Assembly: GCF_900176145.1 (NCBI RefSeq)
Contig: NZ_FWWY01000002.1
Location: forward strand, 1-64,000
DNA from: Sulfobacillus thermosulfidooxidans DSM 9293
GTDB taxonomy: Bacteria; Bacillota; Sulfobacillia; Sulfobacillales; Sulfobacillaceae
Direction of reading: 5' to 3'
Length of the DNA stretch: 64,000 nt
The stretch's first letter is position 1. Every line of letters starts with the position of its first letter. The position numbers were made by a program, and so were the translations under genes. Under the pieces are notes generated by a model. That model was not told the DNA's origin, did no database searches, and saw nothing but the letters and a program-made list of their open reading frames with translations. This document shows, piece by piece, positions 38,813 to 45,513 of the stretch.

Positions 38813-40559
38813 GTAACTGGTTAGGTACCTTCCTCCGGCACCGGTAAGAAAAATTTTGAAATTATATTAGTAGTACGGGCTGGACGTGGGCCGGCCCACC
38901 TGATAGAGTAGGGACATCAAGGTGGGTGAGGTGATCTTCCATGTCATCAAGATCGGAATCGGATGCAGGCGCGGGCTTTCAGGCCTCGCTGATCGAGGGA
39001 ATGGATCGCGAGCGCTTTGAGGCGTACTCCCAACAAGCCGGGCTGGACGGGCTCTTGGCCCTCTTTCAGGCCATGAGTCAGCAAATCGCGCAGTTGCAAG
39101 ACCCCGTCAATCAACTGCGTCAACAGTTGGGACAAAATAGCCGCAATAGCTCGAAGCCCCCTCCAGCGACGGGTATCAGAAACCCGCCCCCAAAAGTCGG
39201 CGTCAACGAACGGGGAAGAAGCCCGGCCGCGAGCGGGGCCATCCGGGCACGACGCTCTTCCAACGCGAGGTGCCGGACGATGAGATTCGGTATCCTGTGG
39301 ACCACTGTGACCCCTGCGGAGAGGACCTGACGGAGACTCCGCCGGTGGCGGTACAGCGGCGGCAAGTGTGGGACCTCCCGGAGCAGCCGATCGTGGTGAC
39401 CGAACATCAAGCGGAAGTAAAAATCTGTCCCAGCTGTGGCACGCGGGCGCGGGCCACCTTTCCGCCCGAGGTTCAGGCGCCGGTCCAATATGGGCCCGGC
39501 ATCCTCGCCCTAACGGCCTATCTCCATTATTATCAATTGGGGCCTCTCGCACGCCTGCGGGAACTCTTTCGAGACCTCTGGCAGTTGCCGTTGAGTACGG
39601 GCCCCGTGATGCGGAGCTGGCGCCGGGTGGCTGCCCGCCTGGAACCCGTGATGGAGACCGTGCGGGTGGCCCTACAAGACGCCCCCCGGGTGAATACCGA
39701 CGAAACGGGCATGCGCGTGGAGAGCATCTTGCAGTGGTTCCACACCGTGTCCACGCCCGGGCTGACGTATTTATTTGCCCATGCCAAACGGGGCAAGGAC
39801 GCCGTCGATGCGATGGATATTTTGCCGCATCGGATCGGGACGACCCAGCATGATGGATGGGCGACGTATCGCGCCTACCCCGGGCAACATGCGTTGTGTA
39901 ATGCGCATCACGAGCGAGAGCTCATTGCAGCCCAGGAAGCGGTCCACCAAGACTGGGCGGGTGAGTTGCTGACACTCTTGGGTCAAATGAAGACGGCGAC
40001 AGACGCGGCCCGGGCTGCTGGCCGGGCGGAGCTGAACTCAGGGCTCCGAGTTCAACTGTTGACCCGCTATGACGTACTCGTACGCGAAGGCCTGCGCCAA
40101 AATCCCGCCAATCATCCCGCTCCGGGGCGCCGGCGGCGCCCCAAACAAACGAAGACGCGCAATCTCCTGGAACGGCTCGATCAGCATCGGACGGAAGCCC
40201 TTCTCTTCGTCCATGACCTCTCGGTGCCCTTTGACAACAATTTAGCAGAACGCGATTTACGCATGGTCAAGGTGCGGCAAAAAGTGTCCGGGACGTTTCG
40301 CACGACGGACGGTGCCACCGCGTTTGCCACCGTTCGCGGCTACCTCAGCACGGCCAAGAAACAAGGACAACCCCTGTTAGCAGCACTACGCTCCGTCTTG
40401 GGCGGCATGCCTTGGATGCCCACAACCCGCTAAGCCCCGACGCGACCCACGTTGAACGTCTTCGGGGATGGCCTTGCCATCCTCTGGTTCACGCGGCTCC
40501 GCTCGCCCCTCTGGGCATCCCCTGATCTCTTAAATCGAACTGGGTACCTAACCAGTTAC
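38813..40559 (+). mobile_element. IS66-family element
   Basis: Perfect 17-bp terminal inverted repeats GTAACTGGTTAGGTACC (38813-38829 and 40543-40559). It carries one transposase gene only, without the tnpA/tnpB accessory genes of large IS66 elements. No 8-bp target duplication is visible. It interrupts the gene that starts at 40725 on the minus strand. Confidence 0.9.
38941..40433 (+). pseudogene. IS66 transposase, single frameshift
   Basis: Two frames: 38941-about 39165 gives the N-terminal coiled coil (LFQAMSQQIAQLQDP, LRQQLGQNSRNSSKPP), and from about 39167 to 40433 come the zinc-finger (CDPCGEDL, CPSCGTRARATFP) and DDE_Tnp_IS66 domains (VNTDETGMRVE, QHDGWATYRAYPG, CNAHHERELIA, VPFDNNLAERDLRMVKVRQKVSG). 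One base is missing in the C-rich run after NSSKPP, and the frame GYQKPAPKSRRQRTGKKPG then restores the protein. All catalytic residues remain, so one base separates this from an active transposase; sequencing error is possible. Confidence 0.85.
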
Positions 40560-40725: not shown

Positions 40726-41090
40726 ACTGACTCCCTATCCTCGTCCAAAAGCCGATTTAAGGCATCCAGATTTATAGTCAGGCGGTTAACCCAACGAATG
40801 GTTTCGAGATCCTTCGACGTGATCTGGGCGGTATGGAATGCTGCTATAACGGCTGGGGTGCTCTCCGGCTCGGATATCGGATCGTCTTGGAGAAAATAGC
40901 TCAACTCAACCCCATAGAGGTCAGCCAAGCGTTGCAATGTGGGAATATCTATTGGCCGTTGTCCTGTCTCAATATAAGAGACTTGTTCGCGTTTGAGATC
41001 TCAATAGGCTGCCACGTGCTGTTGCGTAAGACCTGCATGATGACGGGTATGCGCCAATCGTTGTTCAATGATTACACGAGGTAACACCAT
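40722..41090 (-). pseudogene. XRE-family regulator with an in-frame stop
   Basis: From the ATG at 41090 (AAGGGGG upstream) the frame reads VIIEQRLAHTRHHAGLTQQHVAAY, then TGA at 41001-41003, then DLKREQVSYIETGQRPIDIPTLQRLADLYGVELSYF, an HTH_3 domain, and about 50 C-terminal residues with DALNRLLDEDRES. A single change would give the expected Leu codon. These small regulators usually control the phage- or plasmid-like genes beside them. Confidence 0.78.
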
Positions 41091-41248
41091 AAAATAACGC
41101 CCCCTTTTTGGAGATCAACCAAAGTGACAGAAATATGGGTTGAGAACACGAGTAATGGGTTGTCGGGCCCAAGCAGGGTGCGGCAATGGGGATCGAATAC
41201 GGATCAAAACGCTATAAGGGTCTGAGTGTGCGGTGAGGCGATAATCTG

Positions 41249-41569
41249 TTAAAGAATCGTGACACGATACCAGGCAATGGTCGCGTCGGCCGGCAACGTG
41301 GTGGCTCCTTCGGGCAGGCGGGGGCCGCGGTATTGGCCGATGATCGCGAGATCGCCGGATTGGAGCGTCACCGTGCGACGTTGGACAGGCACGGGAATTC
41401 CGAGCAGTTGGGAAAAGATCGCCGCGGTTTCGGCGTGCCCCACAGCGCTTTCGATAACCGGTCGGGTGAGCAGTTCGCGGGCCGTTTCCAGCGGTATGGC
41501 GTCGATATGCAGACTAACGGGAAAGTGAGCGAGCATGTTGAGGGAAAAGGCATTGAGGAGATAGGTCAT
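41249..41569 (-). CDS. DUF1874 protein, AcrIII-1-like cyclic tetra-adenylate ring nuclease
   Basis: 106 residues from the ATG at 41569 (AAAGGAG upstream). MTYLLNAFSLNML, then ESAVGHAETAAIFSQLLGIPVPVQR and PRLPEGATTLP match the DUF1874 family of STIV B116, YddF and the viral ring nuclease AcrIII-1. The His of VGHAETA corresponds to the catalytic His of AcrIII-1, and the Glu of LPEG to its conserved Glu. AcrIII-1 destroys the cA4 signal of type III CRISPR systems. The family match is strong; ring-nuclease activity is inferred from the conserved residues. The neighbours fit a phage/plasmid origin. Confidence 0.85.
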   Translation of the reverse strand: MTYLLNAFSLNMLAHFPVSLHIDAIPLETARELLTRPVIESAVGHAETAAIFSQLLGIPVPVQRRTVTLQSGDLAIIGQYRGPRLPEGATTLPADATIAWYRVTIL

Positions 41570-41640
41570 GATGAAGACTCCTTTCAGGATAATGACGAAT
41601 GAGAACAGAGGAGAGCCGGTCCGGAGAGGATCGGCAGGAC

Positions 41641-41952
41641 TTAGGAACGGGAGGCGTGGGACACGGTGGCGACCCACGTATGGATGGCGTGGGTCGAGAG
41701 CGTCCATGTGTCGGCAAAATGGGCGACAAAGGCCCACTTAAAATCTTGATAGAGCTGATCGGCTGTTGCCGTATCAACGGCATCCGCTAAGAGCGCATAC
41801 GCCAAATCGGCGGGACCGGATCCGCCGTAGCCCCATTCAAAGCCCGTGGGGCTATGCCGCACGAGATGAGGGAGATCGCCGAGAATGTGTCCGTCGACGA
41901 CAATGTGGACGATAGGGCCCTGGGTTGTGCGAAATCCGTGGTAAGCTTTCAC
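41641..41952 (-). CDS. DUF6166-like small protein
   Basis: About 103 residues from the GTG at 41952, with AGGAG upstream; the longer in-frame extension lacks an RBS. KAYHGFRTTQGPIVHIVVDG and RHSPTGFEWGYGGSGPADLAYALLAD are typical of the DUF6166 family common on phages and plasmids. The C-terminus is less conserved (FKWAFVAHFADTW). Function unknown. It lies just upstream of the ring-nuclease gene on the same strand. Confidence 0.75.
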   Translation of the reverse strand: MKAYHGFRTTQGPIVHIVVDGHILGDLPHLVRHSPTGFEWGYGGSGPADLAYALLADAVDTATADQLYQDFKWAFVAHFADTWTLSTHAIHTWVATVSHASRS

Positions 41953-42312
41953 GCAAGCATCACTCCTGCTGCTGAGAGTAAATTGAGTCTGCCGTGTGAT
42001 AAACACGGCCGCGAGGCCGGAGTAGAGCACACAGCGTGTTCTGGCAGAGGAACGAAATACCATGTGGTGGAGGGCCGTCGCAGACCGTCATACAGATCAA
42101 TAGGGCTAGTGGTGGGACAGAAACAGGATGAAAAACCCGACGATAATCACCATTAAGGTGCTCCAATACCCGTATTGCAAGCTGGTGAGTTTTTGATTGA
42201 AATGCGAGGTGGCCGGAAACCGGATTAGGGAAAACGAAAGGGTGTCGGATCCTCTCTTCTGATAAAAGAACGAACACAAGATGGCCCGGGAACGACAGGG
42301 ATCTCCGCCCCA
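41953..42312. other. Gap with a possible small membrane peptide
   Basis: A minus-strand frame ending at 42106 codes a C-terminal membrane helix (YWSTLMVIIVGFFILFLS), preceded by a polar stretch. No start with a proper RBS was found, so it is only a candidate. The rest holds nothing recognisable. Confidence 0.3.
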
Positions 42313-42726
42313 TCAACGCGACCGCGCGAGCACAGGGACGGATCCGTGCGGTGAATGAGGGGAGTGCCGCCACAATCGCCACCACTGAGCCCCATCGGTT
42401 GCACCGATCGGAAACGCGTTAAGGCCCCAATGGACGGGCAGAATCCACCGCCACCACACCGCTAAGGTGGGATGCCACCAGAGCATAAGACACATCCACA
42501 CGCCTTCGGCAATCGGCGCGGCAATCAAGGTTTGCCGGATTTGCGAGGGCGTTAGTCCTGTAACATCTAACGCCACACCAATGCGTCCATGCCGGAGATC
42601 CCAAACAGCGTGCAAAATCCGACCGCCATAGGAACGGGCGACGAGACTATGCGCCAATTCGTGGACGACGAGAAGTCCCACAATACTGATGAGCAACATT
42701 AGGAGTAAATGCGAAGATTGAATCAT
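42313..42726 (-). CDS. M50-like membrane metalloprotease
   Basis: 137 residues. LLLMLLISIVGLLVVHELAHSLVARSYGG combines a membrane helix with the zinc motif HELAH. A second hydrophobic block (LAVWWRWILPVHWGLNAFPIGATDG) resembles the NxxPxxxxDG region of site-2 proteases, whose Asp is the third zinc ligand. It is shorter than usual for S2P enzymes, but both active-site parts are present. Possible role: intramembrane cleavage of a regulator. It sits in the phage/plasmid-like island. Confidence 0.7.
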   Translation of the reverse strand: MIQSSHLLLMLLISIVGLLVVHELAHSLVARSYGGRILHAVWDLRHGRIGVALDVTGLTPSQIRQTLIAAPIAEGVWMCLMLWWHPTLAVWWRWILPVHWGLNAFPIGATDGAQWWRLWRHSPHSPHGSVPVLARSR

Positions 42727-42756
42727 CAGGTATCGACCTTTCTGAGATCAGTGGGA

Positions 42757-43245
42757 TTAATGATAAAACAGATAGCCAAGCCAGCCGTAGCGCCATTGAT
42801 CTTCTTGCGCAGATAAGGTCCGCAGCGACGGAAAAGCGGCGGGCGGTCCCTGCTGCACGGTATCCCAAGCCGCGCGCATTTGCTGCGCCGCACGATCCGC
42901 CGAAAGACGGCCAATCCCGGTGCCGAGACCGGGACAGGTGCATCGCGTCACCGAATCGGACGGGTGTTGGGCATTCCACTCGGCCAGGGCCAAGAGCAGG
43001 CCGCGAAAGGCCAGATAGGCGTGCAGCGTGCTCCGAACGGGCCGCGGCGTCCGCATGGTGGGCGCGATAATCAAATGGGTGTAGGGCGTGTGCGGTGTGG
43101 GAACGATCAGGGCTTGCCCGATGAGAAGCTCGCCATGCGCCTGATGCCGAATGGCGATATTAGGAATTCCATCGAACACCCGATGCCAGGCGCGGATAAG
43201 CGCGGGTTTGCGGTCAATGAGGATGAGAGAACACAAACGCAACAT
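42757..43245 (-). CDS. Macro-domain protein lacking part of the first ADP-ribose loop
   Basis: 162 residues from the ATG at 43245 (GAGGTGATC just upstream). ELLIGQALIVPTPH, HLIIAPTMRTPRPV, HAYLAFRGLLLALAEWN and CTCPGLGTGIGRLSADRAAQQMRAAW match phage-type macro domains. The usual segment with the first binding loop (PANxxGxMxGGxD) between NIAIRH and HGELLIGQ is missing, apparently an in-frame loss of about 40 residues. Macro domains bind or remove ADP-ribose and can counter ADP-ribose-based defence. Activity of this form is doubtful. Confidence 0.72.
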   Translation of the reverse strand: MLRLCSLILIDRKPALIRAWHRVFDGIPNIAIRHQAHGELLIGQALIVPTPHTPYTHLIIAPTMRTPRPVRSTLHAYLAFRGLLLALAEWNAQHPSDSVTRCTCPGLGTGIGRLSADRAAQQMRAAWDTVQQGPPAAFPSLRTLSAQEDQWRYGWLGYLFYH

Positions 43246-43414
43246 GATCACCTCTTGAGTCACGATGTGAGCGAGAAAGATGAATTCCGGGATTCAGCGG
43301 GAAAGCTTTGCAAAATGGTGACGAGATACGGGATGTCTGCGGCATGAAAGGCGATGTATAGTGGTCCCCAAAAACTAGACAATTTTGGAGGCCGTCAAGT
43401 GTTACACTGGACAT

Positions 43415-43720
43415 ATGATGGCGAAACAAAAACGGCATTCTGCCACCTTCAAAAGTCCAGTGGTGCTCGAAATGCTCAAGGAAGAAAAAACCGTCAGCCA
43501 GATTGCCGCCGAATACGGCATTCATCCCAGTCAATTGCATCGCTGGAAGCGCCAGGCGCTCGAGAACTTTCCGCAGTTATTTACCGAGTCCCAAGCGCTC
43601 CAACAACAGGCCCAAGCCCACCAACAACAGCTGACCGAGCTTTATGCGGAAATCGGCAAACTGACCACACAAGTCGAGTGGCTCAAAAAAAAATCTGGCC
43701 TCGACCCTGACCCGCGATGA
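43415..43720 (+). CDS. IS3 transposase OrfA (copy A2)
   Basis: Nearly identical to the OrfA at 6957-7262; one visible change is SPVVLEM for SQVVLEM. Intact helix-turn-helix and coiled coil. It could act in trans or as a repressor even though the OrfB of this copy is defective. Confidence 0.88.
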   Translation: MMAKQKRHSATFKSPVVLEMLKEEKTVSQIAAEYGIHPSQLHRWKRQALENFPQLFTESQALQQQAQAHQQQLTELYAEIGKLTTQVEWLKKKSGLDPDPR

Positions 43721-43724
43721 ACGG

Positions 43725-44432
43725 ATGACCTTGTTGGATCGGGGAGCGTATCCGCTCCCGTTGACGACGCAAGCCGCGTTGTTAAGCCTCAACCGCTCGA
43801 GCCTCTATTACCGGCCCGTCGGGCCGGATGCCGAGGAGATCGCTCTGAAGCATCGCATCGATGAAATTTACACCGATCGACCGTTTTACGGGTCCCGGCG
43901 GATGACGGCTCAGTTGAACCACGAGGGTTACGCCGTAAACCGCAAACGCGTGCAGCGCACCATGCGGGAGATGGGGATCTGGGGGCTCGCTCCGGGGCCC
44001 CAGACCAGCACCCGACATCCCCAGCACCCGGTGTATCCGTATTTATTGAAAGGCGTCACGCCGGCGTACCCCAATCATGTGTGGGGGATTGACGTGACCT
44101 ATATCCGGATGGTGCATGGTTGGCTATACCTGGTGGCCATTATGGATTGGTATTCACGGTTTGTCGTGGCGTGGGAACTCTCCGAAACCTTGGAACTGCC
44201 CTTTGTGCTCACGGCCGCGGAGCGGGCGTTGGACAATGTATTGACGGAACGGCTGTGGCGCAGTGTGAAGTATGAAGAGGTGTATCTACACGATTACCGT
44301 TCACCCCGGGAAGCCCGATCGGGCTTGAGCCGATACTTTACGTTCTATAACTATCACCGGCTGCATCAATCCTTGGGCTACACGCCACCCGCGGCCTGGT
44401 ATTCGCCCCTCCCGTCCCTCGACCGGGAGTGA
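43725..44432 (+). pseudogene. IS3 transposase OrfB (copy A2), catalytic Asp deleted
   Basis: 235 residues, in frame, but 41 residues are missing between AAERAL and DNVLTERLW. In A1 this segment contains NHDQGSHF with the second catalytic Asp, so the protein cannot catalyse transposition. The deletion joins two copies of GCGGGCGTTG present in A1, which points to slippage between direct repeats. Confidence 0.88.
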
Positions 44433-44612
44433 TGTTGCCCGGGATTGAATCCCCCACAGACAGCCCTACGGGCTGGGCCTCCTGTTTGTCGACGGGCCGA
44501 CAACGGCCCTCGCCAAACAGGAGGGTAATGGTTCCGATGAAGACCCAAAGGAAGGAGGCCCATCTCACACTTTGGGGGTCAAAAATCTGTCTTGACAATG
44601 GGGTCCACCTTA

Positions 44613-45513
44613 CAGTCACAGGATGGTCACCATCCCGGGCATGGCTTCCAGCCCTCGCGACCCGATCGCCTCGATGCGCGATGTTGGTCCGGTTGGGCTG
44701 GTACGAGGGCAACCAACCGTGACCCGGGTATGAGGCATGGGCAATGGACGCGGATTGATGAAGTTCTGACCCAGCAGATGATTCGCTCGGGGCTCGAAGG
44801 CGTCGCCGGTAGCCATCATGAGGCGTTGTGCGCTTTGACCAATGTTTGGCTACGCATTTTATCAGAGCTACAACGAAACCCGATTCCTGTTCCTGTCCGA
44901 TCGGGGCCCGACACGCCGCGTAATCGTACAGTGCCATTTCTCGGGCGATCACTTCCTGGTGACCGACTAGCTGGCACGCCCCCGCTCACCGCGTACGGCG
45001 ACCACGTCACGTGAACCACCTCCTTGAGCCTCTTTCGCGTTTAGGATGACATAATTGCGCCTTTTATTCGTGATGAACTGAATCTTGAAGCCTTACGAAA
45101 GCGGTCGGCCGTTTCTTGTGGTTTGAGAGAATTTCCCCGCCGCTCCGTGGCGAGAGGGGGCCGATAGTGGGGCGAGGTATGCTTAAAGTTCGTGAATGAG
45201 AAGATGCATTAGCACGTCTTTTTGATCCAGATCCCCTAACTGGCGATTAGGAATGCGAACGGGGCAGGGGAGACAGTCGGAGGTTATGGTGCCTACCAAT
45301 ACGGAGTAACCTGCTCATATCAGTGCCGAATGCGCTCGGGTCGCGCCGTTCAATCAGCCACATACTGGTCCCAGCCAGGGCAGGTGATTTTCGCGGATCT
45401 TCGTCACGACACAACTGTATACCCAAGAACTGCTGTGGGTGGATCAGCCTTCGAGAAGACAACGGCTTCGTGCGAAATAACGGCATAGTATTGTGCTAAT
45501 AAGAGAAAATCTA
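44613..45513. other. Decayed DNA, no gene recognised
   Basis: 44640-45015 has coding-like pieces (TRIDEVLTQQMIRSGLEG, HHEALCALTNVWLRIL) that look like the C-terminal end of a transposase, but no family fits safely. 45247-45486 on the minus strand has another piece (LGIQLCRDEDPRKSPALAG). Both lack starts and an RBS. Confidence 0.35.

Follow-up and report, generated by a model that had tools for sequence, protein, structure and literature searches.

The window, a 64,000-nucleotide stretch of Sulfobacillus thermosulfidooxidans DSM 9293, comprises bases 1-64000 of C2, a 248,656-bp second replicon in a genome that also has a 3.61-Mb chromosome. C2 carries genes for a VirD4/TraG coupling protein, a VirB4-like ATPase, ParA, ParB, a Replic_Relax protein and a ParM-like protein, the last sharing 42% identity with its counterpart on the conjugative Sulfobacillus plasmids pY0017 and pL15. 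The 86-kb contig C55 of G001, a congener, has two blocks of backbone genes in common with C2. These backbone genes and shared blocks support the plasmid origin that a preliminary description of the DNA had proposed: C2 is a 249-kb conjugative-type plasmid, and the segment at 41249-43245 is IS-bounded accessory DNA. A ParM-like partition protein and a conjugation backbone are features that pY0017, pL15 and C55 share with C2; unlike C2, they lack DUF1874 in the stretches read, and C55 has a type III-A CRISPR-Cas system.

The segment is bordered by an IS66-family element and by an internally deleted IS3-type element with 99% copies at other sites on the plasmid (Table 1). As first described, its four genes are encoded on one strand, the minus strand, and the order of transcription is macro, M50-like, a coil gene remnant, DUF6166, DUF1874 and an XRE pseudogene. 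Each of the four frames is preceded by a plausible Shine-Dalgarno sequence, and their codon-position GC resembles that of the C2 backbone genes. A promoter and terminator scan around the DUF1874 gene gave no site above chance. The segment is variable plasmid cargo that has been cut about by insertion sequences.

Table 1 Features of the accessory segment and its borders, in window coordinates.
Feature	Coordinates	Strand	Details
IS66-family element	38941..40433	+	transposase 39270-40433, PF03050 161.5 bits; low-side border of segment
XRE regulator pseudogene	40731..41096	-	one in-frame stop
DUF1874 gene, predicted AcrIII-1-type ring nuclease, 106 aa	41249..41569	-	ATG start, SD AAAGGAG
DUF6166 gene, 103 aa	41641..41952	-	GTG start, SD AGGAG; conserved HSPTGFEWGYGGSGP region
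Remnant of small membrane-anchored coil gene	42112..42207	-	tblastn 62.5% over 32 aa to L043:14980-15219
Small M50-like membrane metalloprotease gene, 137 aa	42313..42726	-	HELAH and NAFPIGATDG motifs
Macro-domain gene, internal in-frame deletion	42757..43245	-	PF01661 20.3 bits, cut-off 22
IS3-type element, internal deletion	43357..44613	+	rve/HTH_Tnp_1; high-side border of segment

The protein encoded at 41249-41569 scores 48.4 bits with the Pfam profile PF08960 (DUF1874; cut-off 26), and the nearest solved proteins found by phmmer are viral AcrIII-1 proteins: AFV3-109, SIRV1 ORF114, STIV B116 and 6scf. When the protein is aligned with seven named relatives, ten residues are invariant, including His45, Arg64, Arg84 and Glu87. 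Over 46 DUF1874 sequences His45, Arg64 and Arg84 are likewise invariant, and Glu87 is present in 90% or more. His45 and Glu87 align with H47 and E88 of SIRV1, and the H47A variant of SIRV1 gp29 is catalytically inactive and still binds cA4 (PMC7213978). The AlphaFold2 model (pLDDT 95.9) has as its top structural match (Foldseek, VIA) 6scf, which is AcrIII-1 with cA4, with Z 16.4 and rmsd 2.1 over 105 residues. Family score, alignment and fold thus agree with the original recognition of a DUF1874 protein bearing the His and Glu of AcrIII-1. The identity is 42% to the enzyme of phage THSA-485A (Tsac_2833) and 29% to SIRV1 gp29, and the THSA-485A homologue abolishes cA4-mediated plasmid immunity in vivo in E. 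coli (PMC7371418). Since the frame is full length, the catalytic residues are kept, the model matches 6scf and a homologue is active, the gene very probably encodes a working AcrIII-1-type ring nuclease. Its product shares family, length, His/Glu/Arg residues and fold with the AcrIII-1 proteins of THSA-485A and SIRV1 (6scf, 2x4i), and all of them are encoded on mobile elements away from cas genes. The window gene differs in being a candidate enzyme and in its location on a Sulfobacillus megaplasmid.

AcrIII-1 has already been recorded in prophages and integrative conjugative elements (PMC7213978), so both the kind of protein and its location on a mobile element are known. Other plasmid-borne DUF1874 genes occur in Nitrosomonas stercoris, Thermus aquaticus and Thermoanaerobacterium. 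The closest named relative found is on conjugative plasmid 1 of N. stercoris (AP019756; 50-52% identity), where the neighbors differ: the stretch read there contains neither DUF6166 nor an M50 or macro gene. Alignment-based scans of viral contigs gave matches for both DUF1874 and DUF6166, with DUF1874 relatives on 90 contig stretches; scans with the single DUF1874 or M50 protein of the window gave none, the back-translated patterns being probably too strict. With profiles built from Sulfobacillus sequences, no type III genes were detected in the flanks of the scanned DUF1874 contig loci. Among related genomes the family is present in 1 of 61. What the present gene adds is a plasmid example of AcrIII-1 from acidophilic Bacillota, a group in which sister species have cA4-type systems. 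The closest relatives on genome contigs (53-59%; L122-L124) are in Patescibacteria-type MAGs assigned to Moraniibacteriota, Uhrbacteria and Campbellbacteria.

We consider it likely that this AcrIII-1-type ring nuclease, carried in plasmid accessory DNA, protects the plasmid by cleaving cA4 in recipient cells. The protein, most likely as a dimer, would bind cyclic tetra-adenylate and cut it with His45 as general acid, and the cA4-dependent type III effectors of the recipient (Csx1/Csm6-like, Card1/Can2) would then not be activated against plasmid transcripts. The family, the intact frame, the active-site residues, the fold and the plasmid context are seen directly; from them we infer expression, cA4 cleavage and a benefit during transfer.

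The relevant recipients would be other cells of the genus. The preliminary description had proposed to check the host for a type III CRISPR system, and the check turned out negative: the genome contains no RAMP genes, and its single match to the Cas10 palm falls short of the cut-off. The present host is devoid of type III effector genes, so the ring nuclease now has no target there. The host does have a type I-C locus that looks complete (Csd1 and Cas1 by profile, the other genes by inspection) and CRISPR arrays of a repeat family common to its congeners. A Cas1 fragment with many orphan repeats and no Cmr genes (L318:12633-12935, L317) lies at the position of the cas1-to-III-B region of the congener G003, between the same four flanking genes. 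Since G003 has its III-B system at this site, the host has most likely lost a type III-B locus here. Three congeners (G002, G003 and G004) have type III-B systems (Cas10/Cmr) with Card1/Can2 and Csm6-HEPN effectors, and cA4 activates Card1/Can2 (PMC7969007). The genus thus includes recipients with a suitable alarm. The plasmid contig C55 of G001, which has a conjugation-type backbone, itself carries a type III-A system: at about 75-85 kb (L071/L072) it encodes Cas10, Csm3 and a Csm6-HEPN protein, and about 50 copies of one repeat form three arrays. One member of the plasmid family therefore carries a type III system. None of the 288 spacers of the genus, taken from five genomes, fully matches the plasmid, the best being partial matches of 17-21 bases.

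The location of the ring nuclease gene in decaying, IS-bounded DNA counts against a protective role, and so do the missing target in the present host, the chance-level promoter scan, the presence of the family in just 1 of 61 related genomes and the merely partial spacer matches to the plasmid. The gene may instead be a relic that is no longer expressed and has survived by chance between insertion sequences, a reading favored by the damage to its neighbors (the macro deletion, the stop in the XRE gene and the coil remnant) and by the missing type III effectors of the host. We regard this as unlikely, because neither the ring nuclease frame nor the DUF6166 frame is shortened, and both keep the family-invariant residues and have good Shine-Dalgarno sequences.

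It is less probable still that the protein is a Crn2, a ring nuclease of the CRISPR-associated kind that has outlived its type III locus and whose role was to reset the immunity of the host, not to defeat it. The model does share its fold with Crn2 and Csx1-Crn2 (8y7f, 8y7g; Z 14), PADLOC assigns the protein to the CRISPR ring-nuclease model Csx16, and a III-B locus apparently lost from the host, where a Cas1 fragment and repeats persist, would provide a source. However, Crn2 is located in type III loci or fused to Csx1, and the window gene is neither inside nor fused to a type III CRISPR locus; it lies on a plasmid, far from the chromosomal Cas1-fragment locus. PF08960 was found in no congener, so the III-B loci of the congeners are without such a gene, and among named relatives the nearest come from phages and plasmids.

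The genes that accompany the ring nuclease were initially read, together with it, as the remains of a phage or plasmid module against immunity based on cyclic oligoadenylates and ADP-ribose. The presence of DUF6166 beside DUF1874 is borne out by a PF19663 score of 110.9 bits (cut-off 27), and the profile searches suggested for the two families thus place both above cut-off. DUF6166 is a common mobile-element family with relatives encoded on 362 viral contig stretches, and its HSPTGFEWGYGGSGP region is strongly conserved. The AlphaFold2 model is confident (pLDDT 94.1); it has no match above Z 2.3 in the PDB and no usable match in BFVD, and PHROGs, PADLOC, NCBIfam and the literature returned no match for the family. 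A third DUF6166 gene of the host genome occupies, after the EAL gene, the slot of C2 that corresponds to the macro and M50 site of C55. On a Hymenobacter plasmid (L077:3878-7971), DUF6166 adjoins a SIR2 protein and a Piwi-domain protein, neighbors of the short Argonaute type. The small coil gene, a remnant in the window, is also found on the sister plasmid contig C55.

The third product was described as a membrane protease with an HELAH motif. It is a membrane protein, and both metal-ligand motifs of peptidase M50, HExxH and NxxPxxxxDG, are present; in an alignment of relatives HELAH is kept and NAFPIGATDG recurs as NxxP..(N/T)DG. The Pfam M50 score of 22.1 bits is, however, under the cut-off of 27.2, so we call the protein M50-like and not a member of M50. 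A 61% identical copy is encoded on C55.

A macro-like protein is indeed encoded next to it, but as a deletion derivative with a sub-cut-off score. Alignment with full-length relatives shows that about 48 residues were lost in frame, so that the first strand jumps to HGELLIGQ. The sequence SPANSFGWMxGGxD, which we take to be the ADP-ribose-binding loop (loop 1) of macro domains, is kept by full-length relatives encoded on other contigs of the class and is absent from the window copy. With NSFGWMxGGxD deleted, the copy lacks a defining feature of ADP-ribosyl hydrolases and ADP-ribose binders, and the statement that macro domains remove ADP-ribose is therefore not transferable to this protein.

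The XRE gene is broken, as reported, by its stop codon, but the row of genes does not stand behind it: in transcriptional order the pseudogene comes last, downstream of all the others, and is therefore not their upstream regulator. Its intact chromosomal copy, with 79.5% protein and 81% DNA identity, is 1.1 kb away from another DUF6166 gene. The XRE gene belongs to a separate unit of XRE, IrrE-like and then PIN-like genes, of which the chromosomal example is the one near that DUF6166.

A counter-defence island, in which several anti-defence genes would be grouped repeatedly across mobile elements, was not found by neighborhood or genome co-occurrence. With profiles for DUF1874, DUF6166, the M50-like protein and the macro family we compared 123 DUF1874 loci, four of which are the window itself. 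In the flanks of the about 119 others, covered to at most 7 kb per side, neither DUF6166 nor an M50-like gene nor this macro family occurs, and DUF1874 is absent from all 79 viral DUF6166 loci compared. Across 398 genomes of the phylum DUF6166 is present in 15 and DUF1874 in 11; the two coincide only in the genome of the window itself, against 0.4 expected by chance. Recurrence of the gene order had been set beforehand as one test of the joint module, and just one combination recurs, macro with M50, once, on C55. There a ParB/Dam-type methylase gene and a RelE-like gene separate the two, and neither DUF1874 nor DUF6166 was found in G001. With this gene order, the lost macro loop and an XRE gene from another unit, the joint module does not hold; what stands of the original reading is the plasmid DNA and the AcrIII-1-like protein. 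That the four genes act together as an island against nucleotide-signal and ADP-ribose based immunity is highly improbable, for all that they lie on one strand, that macro and M50 meet again on C55 and that DUF6166 is common on viral contigs. DUF6166, the M50-like gene and the damaged macro gene are separate plasmid cargo that forms no module with the ring nuclease. No link of DUF6166 or the M50-like protein to defence appeared in any of the data examined, and the negative result keeps both from a counter-defence label by association.

The surprising part of the analysis is a spacer in a congener. Spacer 16 of the type III-B array of G004, taken as S. thermotolerans Kr1 (L304:14852-14885, ACCTCCATGTTCAGCATGTTCAATGAGAAGGCGT), aligns with the starts of the DUF1874 genes of L131 and L186 at all but one of 20 bases, and over its full length the best identity is 26 of 34 bases. 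Its reverse complement encodes AFSLNMLNME, which includes the most conserved N-terminal motif of DUF1874. On a position-specific DUF1874 matrix the spacer scores 26.5 bits, a value equaled by none of 72,503 shuffled spacers (maximum 24.0), and the next best of the 288 spacers from five genomes scores 15.7. The separation is narrower in a plainer BLOSUM test, where spacer 16 scores 39 and one of 120 shuffles 38. The repeat of this array ends in ATTGAAAC and its last copy is degenerate, which suggests the direction of transcription. In that direction the crRNA of spacer 16 would be antisense to an acrIII-1-like mRNA, as type III systems need. Exact and codon-degenerate searches of viral contigs gave no exact protospacer, and 34 genomes of the family returned only the spacer itself. 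Since it matches the DUF1874 gene of the window at only 17 of 34 bases, spacer 16 would record a relative and not the window gene.

Judged from these sequence comparisons, spacer 16 apparently represents type III-B immunity aimed at an anti-CRISPR transcript. The titles and abstracts searched report no type III spacer against AcrIII-1, which is weak evidence of novelty. If the reading is true, an immune system targets the mRNA of the very enzyme able to disarm it, and spacer 16 offers a testable case of whether a type III complex can act on an acr mRNA before cA4 is removed. A III-A system on one plasmid, acrIII-1 on a related one and a III-B spacer whose antisense crRNA would hit the codons of the AcrIII-1 motif may together reflect a type III contest at the alarm molecule between Sulfobacillus plasmids and their hosts; we put this forward tentatively, as possible rather than probable. 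For specialists, the interest lies in spacer 16 and in how type III systems and ring nucleases are distributed among the members of a single plasmid family. Elsewhere in the window, a by-eye reading of positions 14653-37505 indicates a long gene run of secondary-metabolite type, with a thioesterase, an adenylation domain, a carrier domain, a sulfotransferase and a phosphopantetheinyl transferase-like protein.
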